A stretch of 64,000 bases of DNA, taken from the NCBI RefSeq assembly GCF_030694575.1, contig NZ_JAUYUS010000094.1, forward strand, positions 1-64,000, written 5' to 3'. The position numbers and the translations under genes are program-made. The notes below the pieces were generated by a model that was given only the letters and a program-made list of their open reading frames with translations, did not search any database and was not told the origin of the DNA. This DNA is from Parvibaculum sp. (GTDB lineage Bacteria; Pseudomonadota; Alphaproteobacteria; Parvibaculales; Parvibaculaceae). Shown here piece by piece: positions 34,836 to 41,070 of this stretch; the first letter of the stretch is position 1, and every line of letters begins with the position of its first letter.

Positions 34836-34860
34836 GGAACTTTCCATTTCCCTCTCCGTT
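34836..34860 (+). promoter_or_regulatory. EcfG-type GSR promoter (exact match) for entericidin gene
   Basis: GGAAC, 16 bases, CGTT, about 50 bp before the entericidin start. Probably also drives the DUF1328 gene downstream. Confidence 0.88.
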
Positions 34861-35372: not shown

Positions 35373-35398
35373 GGAACCTTTTCCAAGCGCCGTCCGTT
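35373..35398 (+). promoter_or_regulatory. EcfG-type GSR promoter for csbD-like gene
   Basis: GGAAC, 17 bases, CGTT; both boxes exact, spacer one base longer than most. It lies 65 bp before the CsbD-like gene. Confidence 0.8.
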
Positions 35399-35660: not shown

Positions 35661-35970
35661 TCCTCGCGATGCCCTTCATTTCGTCCGCCGCCAGGTTCCT
35701 GCGTTGAACCGGCGGCGGATTTGCGTTTGCTGGCGAGCCCGTCCCACGCCATCCGTCTACGGAATTTTGCCAATCCGCGAAAGCGCCGGCACCCGATGTC
35801 TCACGACACAACTGCACAAAAGCCCTGTTTGACCGTCCGCGGAGCATGCTATGTCGTTGACATTGCGGAAAATATCTGAACCTTTCGACCTCTTGGGCGT
35901 TGATATGAGAGCAGTATCACCCAAAGTTGCGAATTCGATATTCGCACCGGAAGAACAGACCAGTTCGAGA
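35661..35970. other. Intergenic and leader region before nepR1
   Basis: 310 bp. An in-frame extension of nepR1 back to 35851 is open but has no NepR similarity, and an EcfG-like promoter (35877-35901) lies inside it. This favours a short nepR1 starting at 35971. No other gene is seen. Confidence 0.5.
35877..35901 (+). promoter_or_regulatory. EcfG-like promoter for nepR1-ecfG
   Basis: TGAAC, 16 bases, CGTT; one mismatch in the -35 box. Autoregulation of nepR-ecfG by EcfG is the rule in this system. Confidence 0.6.
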
Positions 35971-36156
35971 ATGATGAATGACAGGCTGAACGAGTGGAGC
36001 AGGAATTTCGTGGGGCAAGGAAGGCGCGATGCCCCCGTCCGCACCGCCGTGCTCGGCCGTCGGCTGCGCGAAATGTATCGCGATGTGGCGGATGAACCCA
36101 TACCAGCGGAGTTTACCAGGCTGCTGGAGAAGCTCGATGCCGGGAAAAAGAACTGA
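35971..36156 (+). CDS. nepR: NepR anti-sigma factor, copy 1
   Basis: 61 residues from the ATG pair at 35971-35976; the frame is open further upstream but that part is not conserved and contains a promoter-like motif. The NepR core LGRRLREMYRDVADEPIPAE followed by FTRLLEKLD is complete. NepR binds and inhibits EcfG until phosphorylated PhyR titrates it away. It lies 4 bp before ecfG, giving tight stoichiometry. A second NepR-like protein is encoded at 37829-38038. Confidence 0.9.
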   Translation: MMNDRLNEWSRNFVGQGRRDAPVRTAVLGRRLREMYRDVADEPIPAEFTRLLEKLDAGKKN

Positions 36157-36160
36157 CGCC

Positions 36161-36763
36161 ATGAAGCAAGAGAATGAGCAGACGTCAGAAGCACTGAGCG
36201 ATGCCGAGTTCAAAAAGGAACTGGAACAGCTCATTCCTCATCTACGCGCCTTTGCGCGCAATCTGTGCGGCAAGCCCGATATGGCGGACGACCTGGCGCA
36301 GGATGCGCTTCTGAAAGCCTGGGCGGCGCGCAAACGTTACAAGGCGGGCACCAATATGCGCGCCTGGGCTTTCGTGATCCTGCGCAACCAGTTCCTGTCG
36401 CAGATGCGCCGCTCCCGTTTCTCCGGAGAGTGGGACGACAGCGTTGCAGAGCGGAAGCTCGCAACGCCGGCCCATCAGGACCACCAGATGCAATTGTCCG
36501 ATTTGCAGCGTGCCCTGATGCGCCTGCCGGCGGCGCAACGCGAGGCGCTCATTCTCGTTGGCGCAGGCGGTTTTTCCTATGAGGAGGCGGCGGAGATTTG
36601 CGACTGTGCGGTCGGTACCGTGAAAAGCCGCGTGGCGCGTGCGCGCGTCGCACTCGACGAGATGATCGATACCGGCGTCTTGCCGGCACGTTCGGAAAGC
36701 ATGTTGTCGGCGGGAGACACCACCGACGCCATCATGAGCGCAATGGACAAACTCACCCGCTGA
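36161..36763 (+). CDS. ecfG: ECF sigma factor EcfG (general stress response)
   Basis: 200 residues from the ATG at 36161, four bases after the nepR1 stop; probably translated by coupling. Region 2 (about 20-85) carries NLCGKPDMADDLAQDALLKA and AWAFVILRNQFLSQMRR; region 4 (about 110-170) carries LPAAQREALILVGAGGFSYE and CAVGTVKSRVARAR. This is the ECF15/EcfG type, which recognises GGAAC-N16/17-CGTT promoters. Several such motifs surround the gene. A bidirectional terminator separates it from phyR. Confidence 0.94.
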   Translation: MKQENEQTSEALSDAEFKKELEQLIPHLRAFARNLCGKPDMADDLAQDALLKAWAARKRYKAGTNMRAWAFVILRNQFLSQMRRSRFSGEWDDSVAERKLATPAHQDHQMQLSDLQRALMRLPAAQREALILVGAGGFSYEEAAEICDCAVGTVKSRVARARVALDEMIDTGVLPARSESMLSAGDTTDAIMSAMDKLTR

Positions 36764-36827: not shown

Positions 36828-37622
36828 TCAGGCCGCTTTCGCTTCTTCGTCGTTGAAGAAAAGCGCCTGACCGATCGCCGCCTTGACGGTGCTCGGCAGG
36901 AAAGGCTTGGTGATGAGAAAGGTCGGCTCCGGACGTTCGCCCGTGAGCAGCCGTTCCGGATAGGCGGTGATGAAAATCACAGGCACCTGGAAGCGCGCGA
37001 AGATGTCCTTCACGGCATCGATGCCGGAGCTCCCGTCGGCGAGCTGGATGTCGGCAAGCACGAGACCGGGCTTGCTCTTGTTGACGGCGCTCAACGCCTC
37101 CTCTCTCGTCACGACGATCGCCATCACATCGTGGCCGAGATCGCGCACGATTTGCTCCAGATCCATGGAGATGATGGGTTCGTCTTCGATAATGAGGACC
37201 GTCGTCGCAATCTGACTGTCGATTTCCCTCAAGGCGGCATCGATGAGAGAGGCCACTTCATCCGCGTTCACATCAAGGATCAGACCCGTCTCGTGATTGC
37301 TGAAACCCTCCATTGCCGTCAGAAGCAGTGCCTGACGATTGATGGGAGTTATCTGGGACAGCCGGTCCGCGGCGATCTTTTCCATTCCCGTCGCTTCATC
37401 CGGCTGCGCCGCATCCGGATTTGTGGTGGCCCAAATGGCATGGAATGCGCGATAAAGGCCTACACGCGGGTCCATTGCGTGATTAACGATGCTGTCATCC
37501 GCGATTATTCCTTCAAGAAGGGAACGTACATAGGCATCGCCGCGTTTCTGATTCCCGGTGAGGGCGCGTGCATAACGGCGCAAATGCGGAAGAAGGGGGG
37601 CGATTTTGTCTGCGAGTGACAT
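36828..37622 (-). CDS. phyR: PhyR anti-anti-sigma response regulator
   Basis: 264 residues from the ATG at 37620-37622 (MSLADKIAPLLPHLRRYARA), the usual PhyR N-terminus; ten upstream residues in the frame are not. Residues 1-130 are the sigma-like domain that mimics EcfG and binds NepR; it keeps ITPINRQALLLTAMEGFSN. Residues 140-260 are the receiver, with phospho-acceptor Asp191 in VLADIQLADG and Lys in ITKPF. On stress it is phosphorylated and releases EcfG from NepR. It is convergent with ecfG and divergent from a second nepR and a kinase-like gene. Confidence 0.95.
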   Translation of the reverse strand: MSLADKIAPLLPHLRRYARALTGNQKRGDAYVRSLLEGIIADDSIVNHAMDPRVGLYRAFHAIWATTNPDAAQPDEATGMEKIAADRLSQITPINRQALLLTAMEGFSNHETGLILDVNADEVASLIDAALREIDSQIATTVLIIEDEPIISMDLEQIVRDLGHDVMAIVVTREEALSAVNKSKPGLVLADIQLADGSSGIDAVKDIFARFQVPVIFITAYPERLLTGERPEPTFLITKPFLPSTVKAAIGQALFFNDEEAKAA

Positions 37623-37679
37623 TACTTTTAGAACTCCGTATATGGTCGGCAATCCTAACCGAGTTGCGACGCGAGTGCC

Positions 37680-38059: not shown

Positions 38060-39832
38060 TTGTGCGGGCCAGAACTGGGGCTGAGTTTGCTGTCATTGAC
38101 CGTATTGAGAAACTGGCTGGGGCGCCTGGAGGGTCGACGCCACGCCCGGCCGACGCTCCGGACACGGATAGCGATCCGGCTGGCGATCGTGCTCCTGCCG
38201 CTTTGTCTCGGGGCGGAGATTGCCCAGTATGCCATTGCACTCCATCACCAATCCCTGCGGGACAAGGCTCTGGTCGCGCGCGGCGAAGCCGTGCTGGCCA
38301 GTCAGGGAAGTGCATTGCAGGAAATGAGCATCCTGCTCGAGACAGTTTCCGCTCTGCCTGCCAGCCGCCCGTCGGACCGGGAATCCTGCAACGACACCTT
38401 TCGCCGGATCGCTGCCCAGCACAAGGATATCTCTTCCCTCCGCCTTATTGCGCTCGACGGAACCACGACGTGCCGCGGACCAGCACCTCCCCCGGAAGGG
38501 GCCGCGACAGAGCCCGCATGGGTCGACGACGCGGTGAAGGTGCAGACCTTCTCGGTCTGGTCGGCGAGCGAGCCCGCAGGGGACGACGGCGCGAGCGACA
38601 CGGCGCTGATCGCAGCTCTGCCCAGCTACGATATGGACCAGAACCCCACTGGCGTGCTCGCCGTTGCCCTGTCGTTCCGGGCGCTGGCATTGACCACGCA
38701 AGGGGTGGATTTGCCGGAGACCTCCGCGCTCGCCCTTCTGGATGCCAAGCGCACCGTGCTCACGCAGCGCACCAGGGGGACGCCCGTGGGCTCGTGGCTG
38801 CCCGGTTCGCTTTCGGACACCAAGACCAATCTCATGTCCGGCACTTTCATTCAGCAAGGCCTGGACGGGACTACCCGCACCTACGTCATCACAGCTCTTC
38901 CCGGCAATATCTTCGGCGTCTATGCGGAGGAGCCTGACGAACCTTCGGTGATAGCGCGAGCGCTCCTTTACTTCGTGATCGCCTTTCCCCTGCTCATCTG
39001 GATTGCGGCGAGCCTCCTCGCCGGACGGGCGGCAGAGCGCAGCGTCATCGATCCGCTGAACCGGGTTCGGCATGCCATTCGCCGCTACATCGCGGGGGAC
39101 GAGACTGCGCGCGTCGAAGACGACCCTGACGCGCCTGAAGAGGTCCAGGCGCTGGCAACCAAGTTCAACACGATGGCCGGTGCCATCCAGGCGCGAGACG
39201 AAGCGCTGCGCGCTGCGTTGGAGCACCAGAAGGCGCTTGTGCGGGAGGTCAATCACCGCGTGCGGAACAACCTTCAGGTGATGAACAGTCTCCTCAACCT
39301 GCAGAGCCGGCGCGCCAAGACGCCTGAGCAGATGGCGATCTTTCTCGATATCCAGAGACGGCTGAACGCCCTCGGCACCGTTCACAGCGCACTCTACAAA
39401 GGCGACGACTTCCGGGCGGTGGACCTGGGGGTCCTCCTGAAGGACCTGTGCCAGTCGATAGAGCGGCACCTCTCGACGGAATGGGGCCGGCCAGTGCTGA
39501 CGATGCGGAGCCCGACCACCATTTTCGCCCTGCCGGACGCCGCTCTCACGCTTGCTTTCCTCGTGACCGAGTTGATTGCGGCCGCCACGTCGAGCCTCTC
39601 GCCGGAAGGGCATCCCGCCACCCAGGTCGATTTCGACCTGTCGGAACGGCCGGGCGGTGGCGCGACCTTGACCATGAAAGTGGATCAACCCGTGCTCGGC
39701 AGTCTGATGCAAAATCGCCCGGACGAAGGCCATATCAATCTTTTCCGGGGCCTCATCCGGCAGCTGCGGGCGCATATGGAGCTGGGAGAGGACAACTGCG
39801 TCGTGACCGTCACCCTGCCCGTGCTGGTCTAG
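38060..39832 (+). CDS. HisKA_2-type sensor kinase with degraded ATP-binding domain
   Basis: 590 residues if started at the TTG at 38060; the start is uncertain. Two transmembrane helices (about 38-60 and 300-320) enclose a periplasmic sensor domain of about 240 residues, followed by a HAMP segment. The HisKA_2 motif is intact: REVNHRVRNNLQVMNSLLNL with His399. The ATPase domain is not: at the N-box position (LVTELIAAATSS) Asn is replaced by Ala508, and no DxGxG or GLGL boxes are seen. It may work mainly as a PhyR phosphatase or phospho-transfer partner, like PhyP of Sphingomonas. Location beside phyR ties it to the GSR. Confidence 0.85.
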   Translation: MCGPELGLSLLSLTVLRNWLGRLEGRRHARPTLRTRIAIRLAIVLLPLCLGAEIAQYAIALHHQSLRDKALVARGEAVLASQGSALQEMSILLETVSALPASRPSDRESCNDTFRRIAAQHKDISSLRLIALDGTTTCRGPAPPPEGAATEPAWVDDAVKVQTFSVWSASEPAGDDGASDTALIAALPSYDMDQNPTGVLAVALSFRALALTTQGVDLPETSALALLDAKRTVLTQRTRGTPVGSWLPGSLSDTKTNLMSGTFIQQGLDGTTRTYVITALPGNIFGVYAEEPDEPSVIARALLYFVIAFPLLIWIAASLLAGRAAERSVIDPLNRVRHAIRRYIAGDETARVEDDPDAPEEVQALATKFNTMAGAIQARDEALRAALEHQKALVREVNHRVRNNLQVMNSLLNLQSRRAKTPEQMAIFLDIQRRLNALGTVHSALYKGDDFRAVDLGVLLKDLCQSIERHLSTEWGRPVLTMRSPTTIFALPDAALTLAFLVTELIAAATSSLSPEGHPATQVDFDLSERPGGGATLTMKVDQPVLGSLMQNRPDEGHINLFRGLIRQLRAHMELGEDNCVVTVTLPVLV

Positions 39833-39864: not shown

Positions 39865-39889
39865 GGAACGGTTCCTGCCGGAGGGCGTT
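39865..39889 (+). promoter_or_regulatory. EcfG-type GSR promoter (exact match) with no downstream gene
   Basis: GGAAC, 16 bases, CGTT, exact. The next plus-strand CDS is more than 1.3 kb away, while a structured C-rich segment and a terminator follow within 230 bp. Confidence 0.85.
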
Positions 39890-39896
39890 CTTCCAT

Positions 39897-40120
39897 TGCA
39901 ATTATGATGAAGGCGTCTCTCGAGACCCCGTAATCGTTGCAGCCCCCGGTCCAGATTTCCCCGCCCCCCAAGCCCCACTGGACCGGGGGTCCCTTTCCCC
40001 GAAATTCCCCAGATCGCGATATGGCGCCCATCCGCGCCGCTCGACGTGTGCCCGGCCGCGCTGCACGTCGTTAGGTCGATCCGGACGCAAGAAGGCCCGG
40101 CCGTTTCACCGGCCGGGCCT
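39897..40120 (+). ncRNA. Candidate GsrN-like general stress sRNA
   Basis: Predicted to start about 7-8 bases after the exact EcfG -10 box at 39886-39889. The central feature is a perfect 12-bp stem, CCCCCGGTCCAG (39943-39954) with CTGGACCGGGGG (39978-39989), closing a 23-nt loop that is mostly C. More C-rich single-stranded sequence follows, then a 7-bp stem CGACGTG/CACGTCG (40042-40070), and finally the terminator hairpin at 40093-40120. GsrN of Caulobacter is an EcfG-family-controlled sRNA that pairs with mRNAs through a C-rich loop. The 3-prime end is uncertain, as processing could occur near 40070. No protein-coding frame of note is present. Confidence 0.7.
40093..40120. terminator. Bidirectional terminator hairpin
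   Basis: AGGCCCGGCCG and CGGCCGGGCCT form a perfect 11-bp stem with a 6-nt loop, serving the PRC-barrel gene from the right and the candidate sRNA from the left. Confidence 0.8.
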
Positions 40121-40143
40121 CCCCGTTCACTATCGACGATCGT

Positions 40144-40983
40144 TTACATGTCGCCGGCGTTGGCGACGTCCTCGGCATCGTAATGGAACCTCGGTGCCTG
40201 ACGGAGCTGGTCTTCCGTCATGGCGAGCTTGAGGGGTTCATCAGCCGGAGCGGGCGTCAGCTCGTCAATCTCCACCGCGACCCGGGTATCGCCCATTTCG
40301 AGCAGGCCGCCGAAGTCGACAACCGCATACTGCGCGGTACCTTCGCTGTCCAGAATGAGGTCGCTGACCGAGCCAGCGTTGTCGTCTGCCGAAGCAAGCT
40401 GGACCTCACGGTCGAGATAAGAGCTGCCGAGCTTGTTGCCGGCATCTTCATAAGGCGCCTTGTCGAATTCAGCGACACCTTCGAGTGCCTCGCTCGTCAT
40501 GCCGATACGCACGACGCGTTCGTCATTTTCATCGCGGGTAATCGAGGCGCCTTCGAAGTCGATTGCGACTTCCTTGCCGCCGTAACCGAGAATGCCGCCA
40601 TCCGTTACGACGACCTGCTCGACCGCATTATCGCCATTGAGCACCAGATCGTTGACCGAACCGACACTTTCTCCGTCCGGGCCGATCACTGTTGCGCCGA
40701 TCAGATCGCGTGTTGAAATTGCCGTCTCCGACATCACCGCAGCGTCGCCGTTGATGTTGAGCGCATCGCTTGTCTGGTTCGTGGCGCTCTGCGCATCGAT
40801 CGCCGTGCCGGTGGCGGAATGGCCCTGCATACCCCTATCCTGGGTATTCATGTCGCCCTGCATCTCGGTGGCAGACGGCGTCATCTCCCGCGGCGCGTTC
40901 TTCGCGTCGTCTGAGGCCGCATAGGCAGCCGAAGCAAGGGCCATCGACGCAGCCAGCGCGGTTGTCGTGAAAAGCCGCTTCAT
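40144..40983 (-). CDS. PRC-barrel domain protein, secreted
   Basis: 279 residues from the ATG at 40981-40983 with an AGGAG site. Signal peptide to about residue 23 (AAYAA), a Met/Gln/Thr-rich linker, then two PRC-barrel domains: STRDLIGATVIGPDGESVG (about 90-150) and SYLDREVQLASADDNAGSVS (about 185-250). PRC-barrels are small beta-domains involved in protein or RNA contacts; secreted tandem forms are common stress proteins in Rhizobiales. An exact EcfG promoter lies 63 bp upstream. Confidence 0.88.
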   Translation of the reverse strand: MKRLFTTTALAASMALASAAYAASDDAKNAPREMTPSATEMQGDMNTQDRGMQGHSATGTAIDAQSATNQTSDALNINGDAAVMSETAISTRDLIGATVIGPDGESVGSVNDLVLNGDNAVEQVVVTDGGILGYGGKEVAIDFEGASITRDENDERVVRIGMTSEALEGVAEFDKAPYEDAGNKLGSSYLDREVQLASADDNAGSVSDLILDSEGTAQYAVVDFGGLLEMGDTRVAVEIDELTPAPADEPLKLAMTEDQLRQAPRFHYDAEDVANAGDM

Positions 40984-41045: not shown

Positions 41046-41070
41046 AACGGGTACGTACAGGAGGGGTTCC
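41046..41070 (-). promoter_or_regulatory. EcfG-type GSR promoter (exact match) for PRC-barrel gene
   Basis: Reading leftward: GGAAC, 16 bases, CGTT, exact, 63 bp before the start codon. Confidence 0.88.

Follow-up and report, generated by a model that had tools for sequence, protein, structure and literature searches.

The stretch of Parvibaculum DNA analysed here (64 kb, hereafter the window) contains a complete general stress response (GSR) locus, in which Pfam identifies nepR, ecfG, phyR and a kinase gene. Between the HWE/HisKA_2 kinase gene, whose product is likely a PhyR kinase, and a gene for a PRC-barrel protein lies a small RNA (sRNA) element. The features of the locus are as follows, with the evidence for each in brackets.

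35851..36156, + strand: NepR anti-sigma factor (Pfam PF18557)
36152..36763, + strand: EcfG sigma factor (Pfam sigma-70 r2/r4)
36831..37652, - strand: PhyR, sigma-like domain and receiver (Pfam PF22029/PF22233/PF00072)
38060..39832, + strand: HWE/HisKA_2 sensor histidine kinase with a weak Cache match (Pfam; orthologues adjoin the sRNA)
39865..39889, + strand: EcfG promoter, GGAAC-N16-CGTT (sequence; equivalents in relatives)
~39896..40003, + strand: predicted small RNA gene, ~105 nt (DNA search, covariance model, alignment, block conservation)
39898..39942, + strand: 5' hairpin, moderately conserved at 64% identity (MFE fold, RNAalifold consensus)
39943..39954, + strand: 5' arm of the C-loop stem, CCCCCGGTCCAG (sequence; pairing across nine sequences)
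39955..39977, + strand: C-rich loop, ATTTCCCCGCCCCCCAAGCCCCA, the presumed seed region (94% mean pairwise identity; C6 kept in type B)
39978..39989, + strand: 3' arm of the C-loop stem, CTGGACCGGGGG (sequence; pairing across nine sequences)
39990..40003, + strand: pyrimidine-rich tract after the stem, TCCCTTTCCCC (alignments; conservation stops here)
40093..40120, - strand: terminator hairpin assigned to the convergent PRC-barrel gene, not to the sRNA (T-tract strand in relatives)
40144..40983, - strand: PRC-barrel domain protein, convergent to the sRNA (Pfam PF05239)

The promoter consists of GGAAC (39865-39869), a 16-nt spacer and CGTT (39886-39889), and it starts 33 nt past the kinase stop codon; the predicted transcription start is at about 39896. 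The element lies 2.2 kb from phyR and beside the kinase gene, and is thus near nepR-ecfG-phyR. An initial annotation, made from the sequence alone, had placed an exact EcfG promoter after a kinase-like gene inside a GSR island, and both the motif and the location are borne out. The PRC-barrel gene carries an EcfG promoter motif of its own, at 41070(-), and it is probably co-regulated with the sRNA that it converges on. The other exact EcfG promoters in the window are at 34836(+), which precedes a gene for a small DUF1328-like membrane protein, at 35373(+), which precedes nepR-ecfG, and at two additional minus-strand positions, 33795(-) and 25868(-).

The predicted sRNA is laid out as a 5' hairpin, the C-rich-loop hairpin and the pyrimidine-rich tract. 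The stem that closes the C-rich loop has 12 perfect Watson-Crick pairs, as the initial annotation had it, and to these we add one G-U closing pair. The loop is 23 nt long and holds 14 C's, so that its earlier description as almost all C is an overstatement for a loop that is 61% C. The 226-nt segment from 39897 to 40122 folds better than its shuffled versions (z = -3.5, 200 shuffles). When both strands were scanned for stems of at least 11 bp closing loops of 15-35 nt with at least 55% C, this hairpin was the only one of its kind in the window. Under a Markov model, 0.67 such hairpins are expected per 64 kb (raw counts, multiple counting included), and the hairpin by itself is therefore only moderately unusual. 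Its significance comes from its adjacency to the promoter and from its conservation.

When 61 genomes were searched at the DNA level, six other Parvibaculum genomes proved to have the segment, always at the same place. Five of these copies are complete and one (in G008) is interrupted by a contig end inside the loop; the publicly named carriers comprise one "Rhodobiaceae" MAG and three from Parvibaculum. We refer to the form in the window and these relatives as type A. GGAAC-N16/17-CGTT is equivalently placed after the kinase gene in all six relatives, and the longest DNA match runs from near the predicted transcription start to ~40000. Over the window and the five complete relatives, mean pairwise identity is 35% upstream of the promoter, 51% in the promoter with its spacer, 64% in the 5' hairpin, 88% in the C-hairpin and 94% in its loop, and then falls to 33% and 23% downstream. 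Conservation is thus limited to the transcript, is highest in the loop and ends after the stem. The loop core CCCCGCCCCCCAAGCCCC is invariant, one relative has two additional C's, and CCCCCC is found in the exposed loop of each complete member. Within the loop, members differ in length by 2 nt, which speaks against a conserved reading frame or protein, and a short reading frame within the 5' hairpin (MMKASLETP) shows no conservation among the relatives. A covariance model recovers the type-A members at E-values of 1e-19 to 1e-25, values to be read with the fact that the model was built from six of the sequences it then recovered; G008 scores only 1e-6 because its copy is truncated.

The 3' end of the sRNA most likely lies in the pyrimidine-rich tract directly after the C-hairpin, and read-through with trimming at this end is possible. 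There is no standard terminator 3' of the C-loop hairpin, in that no hairpin with a T-tract on the + strand follows it. The initial annotation had extended the transcript through a second stem to a terminator hairpin. The hairpin at 40093-40120 is real, but it is not the sRNA's own terminator: a + strand T-tract is absent in six of six genomes (the window and five relatives), while the minus strand carries TTTTTT in G013 and TTTTT in G024, G025 and G005, with a weaker tract in the window and G016. Since in the relatives the T-tract lies only on the minus strand, this hairpin most likely serves the PRC-barrel gene. The stretch from the C-hairpin to this terminator is unconserved, and the second stem (40012-40070) falls outside the conserved element, in sequence with 23-33% mean identity among the relatives. 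The element therefore proves shorter than described earlier, covering ~39865-40003 with its promoter.

Three further Parvibaculum genomes (G015, G020 and G006) carry a diverged form, type B, in which an EcfG promoter (GGAAC-N16/17-CGTT as a sequence motif in all three) is followed by a hairpin with the loop CATTTATCGTCCCCCCGTGCCCCCCCGTGCC. The neighbouring kinase is merely 34-42% identical to that of the window. Type B shares with type A the promoter and the position next to the GSR kinase gene; its stem is maintained through compensatory changes, and its loop has runs of C6 and C7. The first covariance model, built without type B, matches these three genomes at E-values of 0.002-0.016 in a search of 148 kb. 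We aligned six type-A and the three type-B sequences in register and tested the pairing of the stem, and all 108 pair cells are standard, 12 of them with two-sided changes. This number exceeds that in every one of 500 shuffles, and sliding the partner strand abolishes the pairing, a control in which the tested structure is favoured by having been derived from one of the nine sequences. Compensatory changes are, however, seen directly at four pairs. The promoter sequence, the predicted structure with these changes, the conservation and the location of the element are what the analysis shows, and promoter, stem and C-rich loop are conserved across ten Parvibaculum genomes.

Within the genus, PhyR is found in 11 of 27 Parvibaculum genomes, and one further genome (G005) has the kinase gene and the RNA on a contig that ends before phyR. 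The RNA is present in 10 of these 12 genomes. It is absent after the kinase gene in G021 and G002, which have the locus with other sequence at that place. The PhyR system is patchy across the genus, and several of the genomes without PhyR are complete. A combined model found no homologues besides the window in 386 genomes of the class, a strictly filtered sample with only two genomes from the genus, and no member in 54 GSR loci of other genera. Weak model matches in G026, G022 and G012 were rejected, because they resemble ordinary terminators and no EcfG promoter precedes them. From its sequence features, the element is very probably a real, conserved sRNA gene of the EcfG type. The earlier proposal of an unannotated, EcfG-driven sRNA with a C-rich loop is strongly supported by the promoter, structure, loop and position found in the ten genomes.

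The closest functional comparison is GsrN (ccna_R0081) of Caulobacter crescentus, a sigma-T-dependent RNA of ~106 nt that uses six tandem C's to pair with the G-rich beginning of the katG mRNA, as compensatory mutations showed (Tien, Fiebig and Crosson 2018, PMC5869019). Homologues of GsrN were found by BLAST only in Caulobacteraceae and are located near the GSR locus, and the family was extended to other groups through location, promoter and an exposed C-rich region (PMC5869019). The Parvibaculum RNA resembles GsrN in its EcfG-type promoter (here a motif), its length of ~105 nt, its exposed run of six C's in a loop, its position near GSR genes in most genomes and its proposed untranslated nature. 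The two differ in architecture: the C tract of GsrN belongs to the 5' half, a portion that suffices for function, and a separate classical terminator comes after it, whereas in Parvibaculum the C tract is in the second (3') hairpin with no such terminator downstream. GsrN is further marked by a transcript that depends on stress, by stabilisation through Hfq and by cleavage that leaves a stable 5' isoform. Neither sequence nor covariance similarity links them, and the site in the katG leader was not found here.

The Rfam family RF01529 (CC3552, 106 nt) gives matches above threshold in Caulobacter vibrioides, G275 and G096. In the last two genomes the match is close to phyR and follows an EcfG promoter, which is exact and immediately upstream in G275 and near-consensus in G096. 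From the length, the promoter and the adjacency to phyR, we infer that RF01529 is GsrN. RF01529 has no match at the Parvibaculum locus (E-values up to 5) or in the whole genome (E-values up to 10), the models of the Parvibaculum RNA have no match at the RF01529/GsrN loci, and an Rfam scan of the window gave nothing at the gathering score (BjrC174, at an E-value of 0.78, is far under threshold and was discarded). Nor does the Parvibaculum RNA have the RF01529 layout, in which the 5' hairpin holds the C tract and an intrinsic terminator stands apart from it. With promoter, place and C6 present and RF01529 unmatched, the functional kind fits and the homology test fails. The initial annotation had left open whether this was a homologue or an analogue of GsrN and had suggested a search with the GsrN model; that search found nothing at the locus up to an E-value of 10, homology is unsupported in either direction, and GsrN analogue is the best reading. 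By sequence the Parvibaculum RNA is a new family within a known functional kind.

Other groups offer further cases of this kind. GsrN-like RNAs have been proposed in Rhizobiaceae and Brucella (R. etli, S. meliloti and B. abortus) from location and EcfG promoter (PMC5869019, figure 9). Like the Parvibaculum RNA, these have an EcfG promoter, a similar location, an exposed C-rich region and no BLAST homology to GsrN; they have transcriptome support, and the likeness to the Parvibaculum RNA is one of description. Among the 54 phyR loci of other genera, besides the two RF01529 cases, we found candidate RNAs with EcfG-type promoters and unpaired C-tracts in G047, G164/G313 (L053/L055), G324 (L054) and G135. 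In G047 (L042), from another family, the EcfG promoter directly follows a HisKA_2 kinase gene and a 16-bp stem closes a loop with C11; the order PhyR, HisKA_2 kinase, RNA is that of Parvibaculum. Model R2 has no match to the candidates in G047, G164/G313 and G324, and those in G324 and G313 carry ordinary terminators, unlike the Parvibaculum RNA. A different conserved RNA of ~80 nt is found near phyR in three genomes of one family (G170, G049 and G318, at L066, L067 and L077), with a GGAAC..TGTT promoter, TGACAGGTAGTGACATCCCTCATCCTGTTA..GGTCCTGA and then a strong terminator.

In a small sample (L096-L103), katG is present in seven of seven type-A genomes and in none of three type-B genomes. 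The katG leaders of the type-A genomes have no conserved G-rich or complementary site downstream of an AT-rich promoter-like region, in the probable transcript, and katG as a target is not supported by these sequences. A pattern search with the complement of the loop found two leaders common to several species, those of a PAS histidine kinase (G000, G013, G008 and G024; GGGCCCTTGGGGGGC, ~49 nt upstream of the start) and of a TipF-like EAL protein (G013, G024 and G008, weaker in G000, and varying between species). Pairing of the loop with these two leaders, both G-rich, was calculated at -32 to -38 kcal/mol, better than for nearly all shuffled loops. The PAS kinase leader is equally conserved in G001 and G022, both without PhyR and the RNA, so that its G-richness is a relic or arises from something else. 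With this leader conserved in genomes that lack the RNA, and the EAL leader variable, we claim neither as a target. The strongly G-rich PAS kinase leader, GGGGCCCTTGGGGGGCGG, ~50 nt before the start, occurs at L187-L190, L192 and L194 and is conserved in several Parvibaculum genomes, whether a GSR is present or not. The predicted fold of this leader has its G-rich side paired to the region of the start codon, and if the start codon is masked in this way, pairing with the sRNA could, speculatively, activate translation, as with katG.

We consider it reasonably probable (about 0.7) that the element encodes an EcfG-driven, trans-acting GSR sRNA that pairs with mRNAs through its C-rich loop. The RNA might instead be real and EcfG-driven, with the loop binding a protein such as Rho, which prefers unstructured C-rich RNA, so that it works as a decoy or sponge. 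This loop is indeed single-stranded, rich in pyrimidines and conserved beyond the need of a single seed, and the leader searches yielded no convincing target set; a stem that rigidly displays a fixed loop sequence, however, is typical of pairing RNAs, and the closest working analogue, GsrN, pairs through its six C's (PMC5869019). We regard the protein-binding role as unlikely.

Still less probable is that the hairpin belongs to the 3' UTR of the kinase mRNA, or terminates it, with the EcfG motif incidental. The motif does start 33 nt past the stop codon of the kinase gene, and the element is always 3' of a kinase gene, but the motif and its spacing are kept in all relatives despite diverged surroundings (35% identity upstream), conservation begins near the predicted transcription start, and the three relatives with a quite different kinase still have both promoter and RNA. 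There is very little to recommend a feature acting at the DNA level (a cruciform or a minus-strand G-quadruplex, GGGGCTTGGGGGGCGGGG) or an element antisense to the 3' end of the PRC-barrel mRNA. In its favour, several G-runs occur in the loop's complement, and the convergent PRC-barrel gene has an EcfG promoter as well; against this, a strong terminator stops the PRC-barrel mRNA ~100 nt short of the C-loop hairpin, the promoter and 5' hairpin indicate a + strand RNA, and type B keeps the C6 and C7 runs but not the arrangement of the runs.

For the trans-acting sRNA we infer transcription, EcfG dependence, the pairing mode, the direction of regulation and targets in the following scheme. Stress would lead to phosphorylation of PhyR, upon which NepR would let go of EcfG, and EcfG would transcribe the ~105-nt RNA from 39896. 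The rigid GC-rich stem after the 5' hairpin would display the 23-nt loop, which would pair with G-rich stretches of mRNAs, probably close to translation starts, and thereby alter their translation or stability. A bolder extension, which we hold to be improbable as a whole, is that unrelated EcfG-driven RNAs arose time and again in Alphaproteobacteria at the GSR locus and converged on an exposed tract of six or more C's, that the display hairpin of the Parvibaculum RNA is also its 3' end, and that the RNA opens the start-codon-masking leader of the PAS kinase and so connects the GSR with a second signalling pathway.

Since such RNAs are unrecognisable by sequence between families, searches that combine promoter, place and an exposed C-tract would find what homology misses. 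The Parvibaculum RNA, a family absent from Rfam, enlarges the small group of core regulators in the alphaproteobacterial stress response, and suggests that the GSR in general includes a post-transcriptional arm with a C-rich seed.
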